Source of the DNA: Candidatus Poribacteria bacterium
GTDB taxonomy: Bacteria > Poribacteria > WGA-4E > GCA-2687025
Length of the DNA stretch: 64,000 nucleotides
Assembly: GCA_028818695.1 (NCBI GenBank)
Contig: JAPPNK010000002.1
Span: 62,001-126,000 of the forward strand
Direction of reading: 5' to 3'
Shown here: in pieces, positions 4,494 to 45,421 of the stretch
Numbering within the stretch: position 1 is the first letter of the stretch
Layout: each line of letters opens with the position of its first letter
The notes under the pieces: generated by a model
Told to the model about the DNA's origin: nothing
The model's input: only the letters and a program-made list of their open reading frames with translations
Databases searched by the model: none
Made by a program: the position numbers and the translations under genes

Positions 4494-5180
4494 TTATCGT
4501 GTGAGGGCGTAAACAGCGATGTTGACCGCCATCTGGACGGCGTATTCTCGAATCTCGGGCGGGTCGTTATGGACGTCGCCCGCCTCTAAGCCGTCTCCGA
4601 TGTCGGAGCTCCAGGCGTAAAAGACGGCGAGCCGCCCGTCCACAAAGACGCCGTATCCTTGGGCGGGGTCTCCGTCATGCTCATGTACTTTGGGGAGTCC
4701 TGGCAAGCTGTAAAAGGCGCGGTAAATCGGATGGGACGCAGGTATCGGCTGAAGAGGGCGGCGGGGAAAGACGCGCGCGATCTCTCGGCGGAAGCTGGCG
4801 TCCAGCCCGTAGTCGTCGTTCACAAACAGAAATCCGCCCGCCAAAATATGCCGGCGCAGCGCCTCCGCTTCGGCGTCCGTGAAACGTATGTTTCCATGTC
4901 CGTTGATATACAGAAACGGCGTCTGGTAAAGCTCTCGGTCGGCGAGGCGGACGGGGCGCGCCTCTTTTTCTACAGGAATGCGAACGCGCTCGCCGATCTC
5001 GCGCAGCCAGTTGGCGATGGAGGTTCGGCTGGAATACCAGTCGCCTCCGCCGCCGTAATGCACCTGCCCGATCGCAAAGGGCTGCTGCGCCGCCGCCGTC
5101 AAGCATCCCCCTAAAACGCCGACTGCCAAAGCAATCAACATTCCCTGCCTCTTGATTGATCGCGTTCCGCGAATCCTCAT
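4494..5180 (-). CDS. DUF4159 domain protein, exported
   Basis: A 228-residue protein with an N-terminal signal sequence (positively charged start, hydrophobic LIALAVGVLGG, Cys, then AAAQQ). The rest matches the DUF4159 fold: GQVHYGGGGDWYSS, PFLYINGHGNIRFTDAE, GGFLFVNDDYG and a closing NPP-like segment (VHNDPPE). DUF4159 resembles a glutamine-amidotransferase-like flavodoxin fold without known activity. The start at 5180 is chosen because its ATG overlaps the stop of the upstream VWA gene (ATGA) and an AGGGG site precedes it; a longer form from 5210 is open but overlaps more. It lies between the VWA and DUF4175-like genes, the usual trio. Confidence 0.85.
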   Translation of the reverse strand: MRIRGTRSIKRQGMLIALAVGVLGGCLTAAAQQPFAIGQVHYGGGGDWYSSRTSIANWLREIGERVRIPVEKEARPVRLADRELYQTPFLYINGHGNIRFTDAEAEALRRHILAGGFLFVNDDYGLDASFRREIARVFPRRPLQPIPASHPIYRAFYSLPGLPKVHEHDGDPAQGYGVFVDGRLAVFYAWSSDIGDGLEAGDVHNDPPEIREYAVQMAVNIAVYALTR

Positions 5181-17191: not shown

Positions 17192-17557
17192 TTAGGACTT
17201 CAGTTCTCTGAATATTGGATTACTTGGATTTAACTTCTCCAAATAAGCGAGTGCCGCTGCGGCCCTGATCCATTCCGCCTGCGCTTTTTTAAGCTCGGCT
17301 AGAACATCTTCATGCTGTTTCAGCCACTTCATTCGCTGCTTGCTATAGGGCTTGGCTTTTAGCTGAGCGATCGCTCTTTCCGCGTTGCGCTGTAAAGTAT
17401 GAAAAACGACCATGCCCTGATCATTCGGATCGGGAATGTAATTATCGACCAGTTCTTGAACAAATCTTGGATCGTTCAAATCTCGCCGTGTTTTCTTCTC
17501 TTCGCGACGTTTTCCAATTTTCACTTGCGCCTGCGCTCCTTTCCTGAGTCCATGCAA
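17192..17557 (-). CDS. Array paralogue 5 (type A module), short hypothetical
   Basis: A 121-residue charged helical protein carrying the array core FVQELVDNYIPDPNDQ, then a helix with AERAIAQLKAKPYSKQRMKW. It has no signal sequence or anchor, unlike the full-length founder at 18653-19315. The start is a TTG that lies in sequence derived from the founder's linker, read in a shifted frame. The C-terminus (LEKLNPSNPIFRELKS) diverges from the other copies. It may be a functional short protein or a decayed duplicate. It is the last member of the leftward array. Confidence 0.5.
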   Translation of the reverse strand: MHGLRKGAQAQVKIGKRREEKKTRRDLNDPRFVQELVDNYIPDPNDQGMVVFHTLQRNAERAIAQLKAKPYSKQRMKWLKQHEDVLAELKKAQAEWIRAAAALAYLEKLNPSNPIFRELKS

Positions 17558-17564
17558 CGGCCGC

Positions 17565-17891
17565 TCAATTTTCCTCTGAATCGGCTGGTTTATTTGGATC
17601 GGTTCTGTCCAAATAATCGAGCACCGCTGCGGCCCTGATCCATTCCGTCTGCGCTTTTTTAAGCTCGGCTAGATCACTTTCACGTTCTTTCAGCTTTTTC
17701 ATTTGCTGCTCGCAATAGGGTTTGGTTTTTATCCGAGCAATCCCATTTCCCACTGAGCGCTGTACTTTAAGAAAAACTGCCATATCATTCGGGTCGGGAG
17801 TGTAATTATCGACCAGTTCTTGAACAAACTTTGGGTCGTTCAACAAATCTCGCAGTGTTCCCCTCTCTTCGCGACGTGTTCCAATTTCCAC
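17565..17891 (-). CDS. Array paralogue 4 (type B module), short hypothetical
   Basis: A 108-residue protein with the core FVQELVDNYTPDPNDMAVF and a C-terminal helix ending ADSEEN. By eye its translation is identical to the copy at 18302-18628, 737 bases away. The stop is a TGA where the founder gene has TCA in the same context (EEN followed by Ser), so a single change may have ended the frame. It lacks a signal peptide. Confidence 0.5.
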   Translation of the reverse strand: MEIGTRREERGTLRDLLNDPKFVQELVDNYTPDPNDMAVFLKVQRSVGNGIARIKTKPYCEQQMKKLKERESDLAELKKAQTEWIRAAAVLDYLDRTDPNKPADSEEN

Positions 17892-17931
17892 TTGCGCCTG
17901 CGCTCCTTTCCTGAGTCCATGCTGCGGCCGC

Positions 17932-18294
17932 TTAATTTTCCTCTGAATCGGTTGGATTATATGGATCGATTCTCTCCAAATAATTGATCACCGCTTGGTT
18001 CCTGATACATTGCTCCTGAAGTTTTTTAGCCGTGGCTAGAATACTTTCATGAGTTTTCAGCCATTCCATTCGCTGCTTGCTATAGGGCTTGGCTTTTAGC
18101 TGAGCGATCATTCTTTCCGCGTTGTGCTGTAAAGTACGAAAAACGACCATGCCCTGATCATTCGGATCGGGAATGTAATTATCGACCAGTTCTTGAACAA
18201 ATCTTGGATCGTTCAAATCTCGCCGTGTTTTCTTCTCTTCGCGACGTTTTCCAATTTTCACTTGCGCCTGCGCTCCTTTCCTGAGTCCATGCAA
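17932..18294 (-). CDS. Array paralogue 3 (type A module), short hypothetical
   Basis: A 120-residue protein nearly identical at its N-terminal 65 residues to the copy ending at 17557, then diverging in the last 50 residues (ATAKKLQEQCIRNQAVINYL). The core is FVQELVDNYIPDPNDQ. The C-terminal half resembles the founder gene's end (IKKLQEQLIRNRAVFGYL), so the copies are mosaics. No anchor or signal is present. Confidence 0.5.
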   Translation of the reverse strand: MHGLRKGAQAQVKIGKRREEKKTRRDLNDPRFVQELVDNYIPDPNDQGMVVFRTLQHNAERMIAQLKAKPYSKQRMEWLKTHESILATAKKLQEQCIRNQAVINYLERIDPYNPTDSEEN

Positions 18295-18301
18295 CGGCCG
18301 C

Positions 18302-18628
18302 TCAATTTTCCTCTGAATCGGCTGGTTTATTTGGATCGGTTCTGTCCAAATAATCGAGCACCGCTGCGGCCCTGATCCATTCCGTCTGCGCTTTTTTAAG
18401 CTCGGCTAGATCACTTTCACGTTCTTTCAGCTTTTTCATTTGCTGCTCGCAATAGGGTTTGGTTTTTATCCGAGCAATCCCATTTCCCACTGAGCGCTGT
18501 ACTTTAAGAAAAACTGCCATATCATTCGGGTCGGGAGTGTAATTATCGACCAGTTCTTGAACAAACTTTGGGTCGTTCAACAAATCTCGCAGTGTTCCCC
18601 TCTCTTCGCGACGTGTTCCAATTTCCAC
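18302..18628 (-). CDS. Array paralogue 2 (type B module), short hypothetical
   Basis: A 108-residue protein whose translation matches the copy at 17565-17891 exactly by eye. It carries FVQELVDNYTPDPNDMAVF and the ADSEEN end. It lies 24 bases after the founder's stop. See the array entry for the repeat structure. Confidence 0.5.
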   Translation of the reverse strand: MEIGTRREERGTLRDLLNDPKFVQELVDNYTPDPNDMAVFLKVQRSVGNGIARIKTKPYCEQQMKKLKERESDLAELKKAQTEWIRAAAVLDYLDRTDPNKPADSEEN

Positions 18629-41267: not shown

Positions 41268-43073
41268 ATGAGCGAACAAGACGAACGCGAAATTCCCCAA
41301 GAAGAAGAGCAGGAAAAACTGCCCGAACAGGAAAAGTTTTACCGCGCCCCCGCCCGCTTCGGAAACGTCCCTGTCGAAACGGAGCCGAAAGGGTGGGATC
41401 GGTACCGGCAGTTCCAAAAGATCTACCCGCGCCTAGACCTGCCGATGCAGATCGTTGAGCGAATCGACATGAACGGCGACAGCGGCGCCGAGCCGAACCG
41501 ACTCATCTGGGGCGACAACCTGCACGTCATGCGCCAAATGCCCTCGAACAGCATCGACCTGATCTACATTGACCCGCCCTTCTTTTCAGGGCGCGTCTAT
41601 AACGTCATCTGGGGAGACGAAAACGAACTGCGCTCCTTCAACGACATCTGGGAAGGCGGACTGGACGGGTACCTGATCTGGCTGAACGCAAGGCTCTATG
41701 AAATGAAACGGCTCCTCAAAGAGACAGGCTCCATCTATGTCCATTGCGACTGGCATGCCTCCCACTACATCAAGGTCGAAATGGACAAGATCTTTGGGTA
41801 TGAGAATTTTAGGAACGATATCGCTTGGTGCTATAAAAGTACATCGCAAGCAAAATGTTGGTATCCAAGAAAGCATGATCATTTGTTTTTCTACACTAAA
41901 GGCAAAAACTGGTTCTTCAACCCAGACGCTGTACGCATCCCATTTTCTAATGAATCATTAGGTGCTCACGGTGGGAATTGGAGAAGCGGTAGCAAGGAAG
42001 AACTGAAGAAAATTCACCAGAAAGGAAAAATTCCTGAAGACTGGTGGGATATACCAATGTTAAATTCGGTGGCAAAAGAACGCATCGGTTATCCGACGCA
42101 GAAGCCTGAAACGTTGTTTGAACGAATTATCAAGGCGTCCTCAAAAGTCGGAGACGTCGTAGCCGATTTCTTCGGCGGGGGGGGGGGGGCGGCGGCGGTC
42201 GCACAACGTTTAGGCCGCCGGTTTATCATCTGCGATCAATCGCGCGTCGCGGTCGCTGTGACAGCGGAGCGTCTCAAGCAGGAGAAAAACCTTGACGATG
42301 ACACGCCCGACATTCAGATTGAGCATTGGGGCGTCTACGAGGCTGAGCGTTTGACGCATGCGCCGCCCGATCAGTTTCGGGAGTTTGCGCTTTCCGCCTA
42401 CGGCGCCAAGGCGTCTAAAGAGGATGGGAACCCGAACATTCACGGCTGGCGCGGTCAGCTGCCTGTATGGGTCGGCGCGCCTGAGATGGGCGCGCAGGCG
42501 ACCGCCGAGGATGTGTCCAATTTCGCCGGCGCGGTTGTTAAGACGATAGAATACCGCGACGCGCATCTGCGGGACGGCGTCATGCTAGCATGGGGCTTCT
42601 CCAACGGCGCCCGTCAAGCGGCGGCGCAGCTGCTTGAGCGGGAGGCTCTAGGCCTCTCCTTCGTGAAAATTCAACAGGTTCAGATTGGCGGAGGCGAGTT
42701 TCGGCGTAGCGTCGTCAGCAAGTCGACCGACCGCGCCGACTACAGCGAGTTTTTGACCTTCATTCATCCGCCCGTTGTGAGCGTCGGGTTGAAGGCTCTG
42801 GGCGGGCGCAATTTCACCTTCGACGCCGGCGATACCGCCGTTATGAACAACGGCGCCGAGATTGTGAATGTCCAGTGGGATTTCAACTACGACGGGCGGC
42901 GTTTCACGGCGGATCCGAATCATTTGTTCAAGCGGGAGGGTACGGGCAAGAATCGGCGCGCCGTGTTGACGGCGACTCATCGGTTCGCCGCGCCTGGGGC
43001 GTATAAGGTCGCGTGCCGCGTTCAGGACAGCCTCGGCGGCGAGGGCATGGCGGTTCTGGCGGTGGAAGCGTAG
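41268..43073 (+). CDS. Beta-class DNA methyltransferase (type III Mod-like) with PKD-like tail
   Basis: A 601-residue site-specific, probably adenine-N6, methyltransferase. Motif IV is YIDPPFFSG (residues 102-105 DPPF), motif X-like YPTQKPETLFERI precedes motif I DFFGGGGGAAAVAQ (300-312), which is the beta-class order used by type III Mod proteins. Residues of about 175-280 lie between motifs where the target recognition domain is expected and are coded by AT-rich DNA. Residues of about 512-601 look like a PKD or Ig-like domain (VQWDFNYDG, then HRFAAPGAYKVACRVQD). The start at 41268 has a GGGAG site; helicase and nuclease genes follow after 10 bases. Confidence 0.92.
   Translation: MSEQDEREIPQEEEQEKLPEQEKFYRAPARFGNVPVETEPKGWDRYRQFQKIYPRLDLPMQIVERIDMNGDSGAEPNRLIWGDNLHVMRQMPSNSIDLIYIDPPFFSGRVYNVIWGDENELRSFNDIWEGGLDGYLIWLNARLYEMKRLLKETGSIYVHCDWHASHYIKVEMDKIFGYENFRNDIAWCYKSTSQAKCWYPRKHDHLFFYTKGKNWFFNPDAVRIPFSNESLGAHGGNWRSGSKEELKKIHQKGKIPEDWWDIPMLNSVAKERIGYPTQKPETLFERIIKASSKVGDVVADFFGGGGGAAAVAQRLGRRFIICDQSRVAVAVTAERLKQEKNLDDDTPDIQIEHWGVYEAERLTHAPPDQFREFALSAYGAKASKEDGNPNIHGWRGQLPVWVGAPEMGAQATAEDVSNFAGAVVKTIEYRDAHLRDGVMLAWGFSNGARQAAAQLLEREALGLSFVKIQQVQIGGGEFRRSVVSKSTDRADYSEFLTFIHPPVVSVGLKALGGRNFTFDAGDTAVMNNGAEIVNVQWDFNYDGRRFTADPNHLFKREGTGKNRRAVLTATHRFAAPGAYKVACRVQDSLGGEGMAVLAVEA
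42177..42189 (+). repeat. Run of 13 G inside the methyltransferase gene
   Basis: A mononucleotide tract of 13 guanines codes for the Gly residues of the SAM-binding motif I. Such long G tracts slip easily in replication, and a change of one or two bases would truncate the protein at this point. Confidence 0.9.
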
Positions 43074-43083
43074 GAAGGAATCT

Positions 43084-45081
43084 ATGGAGAACCTGTTTCT
43101 GAGAGTTGAAGACGAGTTTCAGCAGTGGGTCAAGGACGGGTACCCCGAAGCCGAGGAGAAGACGGTCGAATATCTGCAGCATCTGTCCAACCCAAAGGAC
43201 GAGTCGAAGCCGCGCGAGGGGGTACTCTGGGAGCATCAGTGGGACTGCCTGCTGCGCATCGTCTATTCGTATGAGATAAAGCGCGAGCTGTCGCAGCTGA
43301 ACGGCGTTTTGCTGAACGTTGTCACGGGCGGGGGCAAGACGGCGGTCATCGCGGCGTCAATGGCGTGGCTTCGCTTGGCGCATAACGTTCAAAACTTTGT
43401 TCTGATCTGCCCGAATCTGATTGTGCGCGACCGTTTGGAGGAGGATTTCAAGGGCGGAAAGGTGTTTAAAGACCGCAGCCTGCTGCCCGCCGTCGGTACC
43501 TTCGATAAAAACGATTTTGAGCTGGTCACGTTGCAAGCAGGCAGAGAACCAGGGCTATTGGGTTCGCACATTGTCTTAGGGAATATCCATCAGTTTTACG
43601 AAAGCAACAAGAGCGGGCTGGATAACGTCGCCAAGCTGATGAACGGCTCCAATTTTGTTCTGTTTAATGACGAGGCGCACAATTCGCCCGCGCCGGAATG
43701 GGAAAAAGCGCTGAAGAGGCTTGGCTCAAAGACGCTGCTGCGCGTCGACACAACAGCGACGCCTGACCGCGCCGACCATCAGACGCCCGACAGCTCCATG
43801 ATCTACGAATATCTCATTGAGGACGCGCTGGCGGATCGTCTTGTGAAGACGCCTATTGTGTATCAACCGAACATTTCAACGGTGGAGCTGACCTATACGG
43901 ACACAGCGACGGGTGAGACGCGCGGCGTGGAGGAGATCGACTGGGCAGAGGTGGACAGGAAGGGGCTGAACGCGACGCAGTGGGTGACGGACGACAAACC
44001 GATGCGTCAGCAGATGGGCATCGCGCTTCAGCGCTTGAAGGAACAAGAGCGGCGAGCGAAGGGGCGTTACCAACCGCTGCTGTTTGTGGTCGCTGTCAGC
44101 AAGCTGGACGCGCAGAGGGCGCAGCGGACGCTTCAGAACTATTTCAAGATACGGACGCTTCTCGTGACGGAGGACAGCCCCGACAGAGACCGCGAAATGG
44201 CGACGAGTCTGAACAAGCAGCGGCTGAGCGGAAATCCGTATAAGGCGGTTGTGAGCGTCCTGATGCTGCGCGAAGGATGGGACATGCCGGAGGTCGGGGT
44301 CATTTTGCTGCTGCGGAAGTTTGGCAGCCGCGTCTATGGTCAGCAGGTGATCGGGCGCGGTTTGCGGCGCGTTCGGCGCGAGGGCGTCGGCGCGGAGGAG
44401 CCGCAGATATGCGCCATCGTCGATCATCCGAAGCTGGAGCATCAGTGGCTTTGGGATATTTTTCAGACGACTCCCCGCAAAAATGTCGGCATTGATGATG
44501 AGTTTGACGAGACGGAAGACCTGCCGGAGCCGCCGCCCCGCCAGGATCTGACGAAGCCTGAAAACGTCATTGAGATACCGGAGCCGGACGAGGAGGCGTT
44601 TGACGAGTTTGAGCTGGATCTGGACGTCAAGGAGGCGGTGCCGATTAAAAACTGGCGCGAGGTTCTGAACGCGCTAGATTACGGGAATCAGACCGTTGAA
44701 ATCACCGACATAAAGACCGAATCGGTTGAATCAACGGAGCTAAAAAAGGACGGCTGGACGGTGCGCGAGCCAGCGCCGGCCGATCTTAAGAACGGCGGAG
44801 CGGTTGAGCTGCCGCTGGAGGATCTGGCGGAGGGAATCAAGGCGGAACTGATGCAGACGGCGGCGCAGCTGCTTGCGCATGCCGGCCATTCGAATCAGCT
44901 GAAGGGGCAAATATACGGCATTTTGCTTGCGCATGTGCGTTCTCGGTTTTTGGATGGGACGTCGCTTGGTCTAGCGGACCGCGATCGGCTGGAGACCGTG
45001 CGCCGCGTGTTGCCGGATCTGGAGAAGGCGGTCAAGGAGACGCCTGGATTGATTGATGGGATGGTTTTATATGGCGGTTAG
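43084..45081 (+). CDS. SF2 DEAD/DEAH-type helicase, restriction (Res-like) subunit without nuclease domain
   Basis: A 665-residue ATP-dependent DNA translocase. Walker A is VVTGGGKTAV (TGGGKT 81-86), Walker B FNDEAHNS (about 195-200), motif III-like VDTTATPDR, and motif VI QQVIGRGLRR (420-429) after LREGWDMPEVGVILLLR. This matches type III Res and related type I HsdR motors. The usual C-terminal PD-(D/E)XK nuclease of Res is absent; an acidic Pro-rich linker near 475-515 leads to a helical C-terminal domain. The nuclease is encoded by the next gene, which overlaps by 11 bases. Confidence 0.92.
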   Translation: MENLFLRVEDEFQQWVKDGYPEAEEKTVEYLQHLSNPKDESKPREGVLWEHQWDCLLRIVYSYEIKRELSQLNGVLLNVVTGGGKTAVIAASMAWLRLAHNVQNFVLICPNLIVRDRLEEDFKGGKVFKDRSLLPAVGTFDKNDFELVTLQAGREPGLLGSHIVLGNIHQFYESNKSGLDNVAKLMNGSNFVLFNDEAHNSPAPEWEKALKRLGSKTLLRVDTTATPDRADHQTPDSSMIYEYLIEDALADRLVKTPIVYQPNISTVELTYTDTATGETRGVEEIDWAEVDRKGLNATQWVTDDKPMRQQMGIALQRLKEQERRAKGRYQPLLFVVAVSKLDAQRAQRTLQNYFKIRTLLVTEDSPDRDREMATSLNKQRLSGNPYKAVVSVLMLREGWDMPEVGVILLLRKFGSRVYGQQVIGRGLRRVRREGVGAEEPQICAIVDHPKLEHQWLWDIFQTTPRKNVGIDDEFDETEDLPEPPPRQDLTKPENVIEIPEPDEEAFDEFELDLDVKEAVPIKNWREVLNALDYGNQTVEITDIKTESVESTELKKDGWTVREPAPADLKNGGAVELPLEDLAEGIKAELMQTAAQLLAHAGHSNQLKGQIYGILLAHVRSRFLDGTSLGLADRDRLETVRRVLPDLEKAVKETPGLIDGMVLYGG

Positions 45082-45421
45082 CAAGCGCGGGATTTTTGAA
45101 AACCCGACAAAAAGCCCCTACAACTTTGAGAAGTACGACAGCCGCCTTGAGGAGCGGATGATGTTCCGCCTGGAGAAGGACGCTGAAGTGGCGAAATGGC
45201 AAAAACGTCATTCGATCACAATCGACTGGATCGACCCGAACGGCAAACGGCGCAAGTACCGCCCCGACTTTTTGGTGGAATACACGGACGGGCGCAAGGA
45301 GATCATTGAGGTGAAAGGCTCCGAGATGATGGATTCCCCGTCGGTGAAGCGGAAGGAAGCGTCCGCGCAGGAATGGTGCCGCAAGCGCGGGATGGAGTAT
45401 CGGATCGCAACGATCCGCTGA
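45071..45421 (+). CDS. TnsA-like PD-(D/E)XK endonuclease
   Basis: A 116-residue protein resembling the N-terminal nuclease domain of TnsA. It has an upstream Glu pair (YDSRLEERMMF, residues 22-32), then YRPDFLVEY with D66 and KEIIEVKGSE with E80 and K82, forming a complete E, D, ExK catalytic set. It would cut DNA, presumably recruited by the helicase encoded upstream. The start at 45071 gives the usual family N-terminus MAVSKRGIFENP and overlaps the helicase stop. It lacks any DNA-recognition domain, so targeting should come from partners. Confidence 0.88.
   Translation: MAVSKRGIFENPTKSPYNFEKYDSRLEERMMFRLEKDAEVAKWQKRHSITIDWIDPNGKRRKYRPDFLVEYTDGRKEIIEVKGSEMMDSPSVKRKEASAQEWCRKRGMEYRIATIR

Follow-up and report, generated by a model that had tools for sequence, protein, structure and literature searches.

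A three-gene locus with a separately encoded TnsA-fold nuclease resembles a type III restriction-modification system with a split Res

Introduction

The locus described here raises the question of how a restriction-modification-like gene set would cut DNA when its helicase carries no nuclease domain and the nuclease is encoded as a separate protein of 116 residues with the fold of TnsA. In textbook type III enzymes the motor and the cutter are fused in one protein, and in type III, as in type I, enzymes it is the modification part that aims the cutter. Type III enzymes form a Mod2Res1 complex, methylate one strand and cut in an ATP-dependent manner ∼25–27 bp from two oppositely oriented sites, and the place and action of their nuclease domain have been difficult to study. 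In the EcoP15I crystal structure, this domain, which is tethered through a helical spacer preceding it, is disordered (PMC4490356). The locus lies in a 64-kb stretch of DNA (the window), and an earlier reading made from the letters of this DNA (the sequence-only reading) had proposed a restriction module with a separate TnsA-like cutting subunit, leaving the choice between a distinct family and a type III variant. Sequence, profile, structure and comparative data, as set out below, agree in pointing to such a module, and the homology of its nuclease to the Res C-terminal nuclease, together with the lack of the TnsA C-terminal half and of TnsB and TnsC, decides the choice in favour of a type III-like variant.

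Results

Organization of the trio in the window

Three adjacent ORFs on the plus strand, forming one operon, encode a methyltransferase, a helicase and a nuclease, in this order:

41268–43073, + strand: beta-class amino DNA methyltransferase (Mod-like), 601 aa, Pfam N6_N4_Mtase (PF01555) at 7.9e-43
43084–45081, + strand: SF2 helicase/translocase, a Res motor without nuclease, 665 aa, Pfam ResIII (PF04851) over the cut-off at 2.3e-16
45071–45421, + strand: detached PD-(D/E)XK nuclease with the fold of the TnsA catalytic domain, 116 aa, Pfam Tn7_TnsA-like_N (PF08722) at 3.1e-14
45071–45081, + strand: overlap of the helicase and nuclease genes, 11 nt, with an overlap also in 67 of 78 relatives

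A 10-nt gap separates the methyltransferase and helicase genes, and the ORFs, gap and overlap all lie where the sequence-only reading had placed them. The overlap makes translational coupling of helicase and nuclease likely and suggests equal amounts of the two proteins. A programmed frameshift that would fuse them was also considered and is unlikely, as 75 of the 78 nuclease genes begin with ATG and seven of the 78 lie in a different relative frame. The trio is flanked by a DUF547 gene and an ABM/dnaK gene cluster, and no phage genes were recognised alongside it or alongside most other copies. Inspection of the long ORFs in the window showed neither tnsB nor tnsC, and neither gene is a recurrent neighbour in the relatives. 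Elsewhere in the window, at 17192–18628, a pair of small similar ORFs is duplicated in tandem (121/108 aa and 120/108 aa).

The helicase ends where fused Res proteins run on into the nuclease

Besides ResIII, the helicase matched the PADLOC REase_III model PDLC03648 at 1.6e-10, and 36 of 37 helicase homologues match PADLOC REase_III as well. It carries the motifs Walker A GGGKT, DEAH, TATP and QQxxGRGLRR, and three of its parts are located as follows:

43327–43341, + strand: Walker A, GGGKT, residues 82–86; G82–K85 invariant in 73 sequences, T86 in 97%
43669–43680, + strand: Walker B, DEAH, residues 196–199, invariant in 73 sequences
44815–45078, + strand: C-terminal helical bundle behind a disordered acidic linker, residues 578–665, from the AlphaFold2 model

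The other helicase motifs are likewise fixed across the homologues. No nuclease domain was found in the helicase, either by sequence or in the AlphaFold2 model, in keeping with what had been read from the sequence, and the chain stops at the point from which fused Res proteins extend into the nuclease. EcoP15I Res has a helical spacer between its motor and the disordered nuclease (PMC4490356). The helicase model fits RadD, XPB and EcoP15I Res, with the RadD and XPB fits equal to or better than that of EcoP15I Res, the fold search fitting many SF2 motors without discrimination among them.

The detached nuclease has a TnsA fold and is homologous to the C-terminus of Res

The structure model of the nuclease (pLDDT 92.8) found its best fold match in TnsA (Foldseek 3.2e-5, Z 11.6, rmsd 2.9 over 112 residues, 17% identity), with the next fold far lower at Z 7. 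The match spans only TnsA residues 40–166, and the C-terminal half of TnsA is absent. The EcoP15I Res nuclease, which is unresolved in 4zcf, is missing from this fold-search list, and the list is hence uninformative about it; a PDB sequence search with the nuclease returned only chance matches to obelin. The active-site residues proposed in the sequence-only reading proved invariant in 78 homologues:

45149–45151, + strand: E27
45266–45268, + strand: D66
45308–45316, + strand: E80-x-K82

The full set of residues invariant among the 78 sequences comprises E20, E27, W43, D66, E80, K82, K95 and R106.

Profile comparisons related the nuclease to Res. In PDLC03648 (871 positions), the helicase aligns at 125–375 and the nuclease at 731–826, and in the NCBIfam BPTD_3080 restriction endonuclease model (970 positions) the nuclease aligns at 849–940. 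Alignment by hhalign of the detached nucleases with the C-termini of fused Res proteins gave a probability of 99.4, an E value of 1.6e-21 and 33% identity, and 18 of 44 nucleases matched RE_endonuc (PF19778). The nuclease homologue is part of a fused ORF, mostly of 870–960 aa, on plasmids of Ketogulonicigenium, Phaeobacter, Blastomonas and an Enterococcus and, within the phylum of the source genome, in 28 further genomes. On the plasmids, this ORF bears the annotation helicase or TnsA-domain protein and follows genes for a methyltransferase and an SNF2/ATPase, an arrangement similar to that of the type III group with a third ATPase described by Murray et al. (PMC8259958). Since helicase and nuclease align to opposite ends of the same proteins, and hhalign agrees, homology identifies the detached nuclease as the C-terminal domain missing from a type III-like Res. 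The name ‘TnsA-like’ is correct for the fold of the nuclease and not for the system.

The split arrangement is conserved and widespread

A scan with the helicase over one genome per species (84,980 species) yielded 125 relatives, of which 80 were kept, and three further distinct loci from IMG/VR brought the total to 83 loci with a helicase. In 79 of these, enough downstream DNA was available to look for the nuclease; a separate nuclease ORF lay directly 3′ of the helicase in all 79 and a fused one in none, even L110, whose helicase is frameshifted, having the nuclease next to it. The commonest helicase-nuclease spacings were −14 nt (34 loci) and −11 nt (25 loci). A methyltransferase gene was found upstream in 78 of the 83 loci, mostly within 22 nt. 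At L055, L065, L066, L073, L091, L107, L108, L118, L119 and L121, unrelated genes stand between methyltransferase and helicase, with PIN, IrrE-like, AAA, SMC-like, AlbA-type and BRO among the Pfam families of genes inserted at this junction, and no inserted gene of such kinds was seen at the helicase-nuclease junction. The gene trio is therefore conserved across genomes, and the consistent separation of the three genes in relatives, which the sequence-only reading had named as counter-evidence, is not seen; only the methyltransferase-helicase junction is sometimes opened. The split arrangement is not a local accident. No fourth conserved gene stands beside the trio, the recurrent neighbour clusters being mostly shadow ORFs of the trio, and no trio locus gave a match to an SNF2 ATPase such as that of the plasmid relatives. 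In one locus (L124, 3386–3712 and 3760–4077), tandem nuclease ORFs follow a single helicase, a possible duplication of the nuclease subunit.

The hosts span 22 phylum-level groups, four of them archaeal, with ranks taken from the submitters' titles, and include a cultured strain with all three genes intact, Mesorhizobium sp. STM 4661 (L074). The tree requires more changes than a purely vertical history, and the trio has spread widely by horizontal transfer. The nearest relatives of the window helicase are found in Dehalococcoidia, SAR202 and Acidimicrobiia bins, and among 84 genomes of the same phylum only the source genome has the helicase at E 1e-30. A separate phage collection gave no match to the helicase, though IMG/VR contigs carry it. 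In viral contig L037 (5006–9715), the trio adjoins genes for a GTA-type holin, a GH108 endolysin and a lambda-family portal, and in viral contig L038 (1110–2942) a Mu-like capsid gene. An empty-site comparison within the family found no shared synteny.

The target recognition domain is exchanged while the rest of the system co-diverges

The methyltransferase scored best with type II models in PADLOC (MTase_II 9.8e-62, MTase_III 1.6e-50) and matched RsrI, CcrM and EcoP15I Mod in the PDB. The order of its motifs, from DPPF (IV) through the target recognition domain (TRD) to FxGGG (I), is that of the beta class:

41571–41582, + strand: catalytic motif IV, DPPF, residues 102–105, invariant in 56 complete homologues
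41832–42080, + strand: hypervariable TRD, about residues 189–271
42165–42191, + strand: SAM-binding motif I, DFFGGGGGA (consensus DFFCGGGTT)
42177–42189, + strand: run of 13 G inside motif I, in frame, a candidate phase-variation tract
42303–42767, + strand: C-terminal region, residues 346–500, whose identity follows that of the helicase
42768–43070, + strand: C-terminal PKD-like domain, residues 501–601, PKD_4 at 27.6 bits (cut-off 27)

Motifs IV and I are fixed among the homologues, and conservation is 0.8–0.9 on either side of the TRD versus 0.32–0.44 inside it. Residues 501–601 are conserved across all complete homologues; the label ‘PKD-like’ is tentative, because the cut-off was passed narrowly and only six of 30 members match PKD_4. 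Neither this domain nor the 13-G tract had figured in the sequence-only reading.

Pairwise identities were compared over 1,128 pairs of complete loci; as the pairs share ancestry, the correlations are descriptive, and the weight rests on the contrast between the TRD and the rest. Helicase identity correlated with that of the nuclease at r 0.96, of methyltransferase residues 346–500 at r 0.95 and of the PKD-like part at r 0.81, versus r −0.02 for the TRD (r 0.04 with independent pairwise alignments). Among close pairs, which come from metagenome bins, L053 and L075 are 94% identical in the helicase, 91% in the nuclease and 17% in the TRD, and 23 of the 25 pairs with helicases at least 80% alike have a TRD identity below 40%, the baseline for shuffled sequences being 16.5 ± 2.9. 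The TRDs of L103 (a Bacteroidetes bin) and L115 (a Nanoarchaeota bin) are 78% identical and their helicases 45%, an apparent exchange of specificity across domains, or else misbinning. Judged by these comparisons, the TRD is an exchangeable cassette that no other part of the system follows. As it is uncorrelated with the helicase while the nuclease and the Mod C-terminus co-diverge with the helicase, the pattern implies that the specificity of the whole enzyme would sit only in Mod, as in type III. The strong co-divergence of residues 346–500 with the helicase also marks this region as the probable helicase-binding part; in EcoP15I, the CTD of ModA contacts Res (PMC4490356).

The recognition-domain region is also a place of insertions. 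Transposase-like ORFs (by inspection) lie in or near it in L118 (1115–3616), and an IS1595-family transposase (Pfam) with other genes in or near it in L125 (4306–6947), helicase and nuclease being intact in both.

A poly-G tract in motif I and disrupted methyltransferase genes

The 13-G run is the sole G/C run of at least 8 in the window. A tract at the same place in motif I occurs in L045 (5099–5111, G13) and L086 (4141–4148, G8), out of frame in both, which suggests the motif I poly-G of Mod as a candidate phase-variation switch. The motif I of the window, DFFGGGGGA, may still work, because position 307 is G in another relative also. Runs of at least 11 are few in the source genome and are partly contig-end artefacts; long reverse-strand poly-G stretches at or near the contig ends of G000:C4 (1–48), G000:C11 (98–120) and G000:C22 (1–51) are probably sequencing artefacts and call for caution with other G tracts, and G tracts in metagenome-assembled genomes (MAGs) may be assembly or sequencing artefacts. 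The same genome has internal tracts in L138 (1677–1688; G000:C23; G12) and L139 (1685–1695; G000:C24; G11), at the 5′ ends of ORFs whose products look secreted or membrane-anchored. Phase-variable surface genes show a homopolymer at their 5′ ends. The tracts of L138 and L139 are likely contingency loci, and the organism may rely on homopolymer phase variation more broadly. In type III systems, phase-variable mod genes are well known (PMC2667262); Res needs Mod there, so that the OFF state is safe.

A disrupted methyltransferase gene stands beside intact helicase and nuclease genes in L045, L047, L067 and L086, all from draft MAGs, in which assembly errors or dead systems are possible; such loci would be tolerable if Mod is required for cutting. 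In L047, an inverted repeat of ∼20 bp with a very short loop (∼5090–5135) follows just after motif I, with an in-frame stop; it is either a biological switch or an assembly fold-back.

Discussion

We consider the trio to be, very probably, a type III-like restriction-modification system with a split Res, guided by Mod and equipped with a separate nuclease subunit. The basis lies in its predicted parts, their homology to Mod, the Res motor and the Res nuclease, the gene order, the co-divergence and the exchange of the TRD; from these we infer restriction, methylation, complex formation, the need of Mod for cutting, ATP use, the mode of communication and phage defence. As in type III systems, the methyltransferase is a beta-class amino-methyltransferase with the TRD between motifs IV–VIII and X–I, the motor is an SF2 motor of the ResIII kind, the nuclease is homologous to the Res C-terminal nuclease, and only the TRD appears to vary freely (helicase-TRD r about 0 versus helicase-nuclease 0.96). 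Motor and PD-(D/E)XK nuclease are not joined in one Res polypeptide, and the system is therefore filed as a type III-like variant. In the proposed mechanism, Mod would recognise a short target through its exchangeable TRD and methylate the sites of the host, and on unmethylated invading DNA the same Mod would load the SF2 motor. ATP-driven remodelling or sliding of the Mod-helicase complex would then bring complexes together and activate the 116-aa nuclease, a separate, translationally coupled subunit presumably bound to the motor or to Mod, which would cut.

Other explanations were weighed against this one. The TnsA fold match and the Pfam family of the nuclease could be taken to mean that the trio belongs to a Tn7-like transposon, with the nuclease as the TnsA that frees the transposon ends. 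The missing TnsA C-terminal half and the missing TnsB and TnsC led us to reject a Tn7 origin, which the sequence-only reading had also thought unlikely, and as the gene is always beside a ResIII helicase, nearly always with a methyltransferase, and its closer sequence link by hhalign is to Res nucleases, we give this origin practically no credence. An ordinary type II system, in which an independent methyltransferase and a sequence-specific nuclease happen to enclose an unrelated helicase, would accord with the type II models that rank best for the methyltransferase in PADLOC. It is nevertheless very improbable and was rejected, since the nuclease, which has no recognition domain and is homologous to the Res nuclease domain, stays unchanged while the TRD changes, and the helicase and nuclease genes stay together in all 79 loci, usually with an overlap. 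The same constancy bears on an enzyme of the CglI/NgoAVII kind, in which a nuclease-helicase complex translocates directionally and the methyltransferase only protects the host. Here the precedent is real, as CglI and NgoAVII are named systems of methyltransferase, nuclease and SF2 ATPase with the nuclease apart from the ATPase (PMC4267653, PMC5737866), but R.CglI combines a PLD active site with a B3 domain for DNA recognition, whereas a nuclease of 116 residues has no room for a recognition domain, and a target chosen by the nuclease would uncouple cutting from protection whenever the TRD changed beside a near-identical helicase and nuclease. We therefore hold this reading to be improbable.

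Two further possibilities concern the role of the trio and the handling of its nuclease. The trio might serve mobile elements, by excluding competitors or as an addiction module, with competition between elements outweighing host defence. Copies adjoining phage genes (L037, L038) and the wide horizontal spread speak for this, but most copies, including that of the window, have no recognised phage genes alongside, and we regard such a role as rather unlikely; it would in any case be compatible with the same split-Res mechanism. The detached nuclease might also be more than a split domain and act as a separate effector, which is recruited or let go once the Mod-helicase complex has recognised foreign DNA, with the whole system switched on and off by the homopolymer in motif I of Mod. 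This we put forward as a doubtful proposal; if true, cutting could be regulated, could occur in trans or could have a geometry unlike that of type III, and the trio would represent a mechanistically distinct class of ATP-dependent restriction across bacteria, archaea and phages.

With the split-Res system that we favour, a free nuclease of 116 aa would allow cutting, motor and recognition to be separated, mixed and mutated individually, and the TRD block, which moves from system to system and from phylum to phylum, and apparently also across the divide of bacteria and archaea, would provide a natural range of specificities on a common chassis. The trio may often have been missed or misread as an orphan methyltransferase and a stray ‘TnsA’ gene, because its best PADLOC matches either score weakly or fall to type II methyltransferases. 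PADLOC, Pfam and NCBIfam gave no family that corresponds to the split trio, and the literature searched gave no paper that describes it, and the novelty of the split form is relative to these sources, REBASE and DefenseFinder lying outside the scope of the search.

Among known systems, the trio shares with the type III enzyme EcoP15I (Mod2Res1; PMC4490356, PMC4005696) a beta-class Mod with a central variable TRD, an SF2 motor with a helical spacer, a PD-(D/E)XK nuclease and, as predicted from the comparisons above, specificity in Mod. Unlike in EcoP15I, its nuclease is a separate 116-aa product of the TnsA-N subfamily, its helicase stops at the spacer and its Mod carries a PKD-like C-terminal domain. 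The BPTD_3080-type or m4C type III systems with a third ATPase (NF046055; PMC8259958; plasmid loci L031, L033–L035) have a homologous motor, a homologous C-terminal TnsA-like nuclease and the methyltransferase gene directly upstream, but in them motor and nuclease form one polypeptide and a gene for an SNF2-type helicase lies 5′ of mod. To TnsA of Tn7 (1f1z, 1t0f), the likeness extends to the catalytic-domain fold and the PD-(D/E)XK residue pattern, whereas the identity is 17% and the C-terminal half and the transposase partners are lacking. In archaeal XPB-Bax1 (6p4o), too, an SF2 helicase works with a PD-(D/E)XK nuclease that has a gene of its own (Z 6.2 for the nuclease to 6p4o and Z 19.2 for the helicase to 6p4f); it is a DNA repair pair without a methyltransferase, and the likeness is at the level of a common fold. 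The sequence-only reading had named a known family with exactly this gene set as counter-evidence, and CglI/NgoAVII come near to it: they too have three genes, for a methyltransferase, a separate nuclease and a separate SF2 ATPase, and their cutting needs both nuclease and ATPase (PMC4267653, PMC5737866). They differ from the trio in their PLD nuclease with a B3 domain, their Z1-containing ATPase and their m5C methyltransferase, the trio having a PD-(D/E)XK nuclease and an amino-type methyltransferase (PF01555 with DPPF), and they are the nearest named precedent for a nuclease encoded apart from its ATPase.
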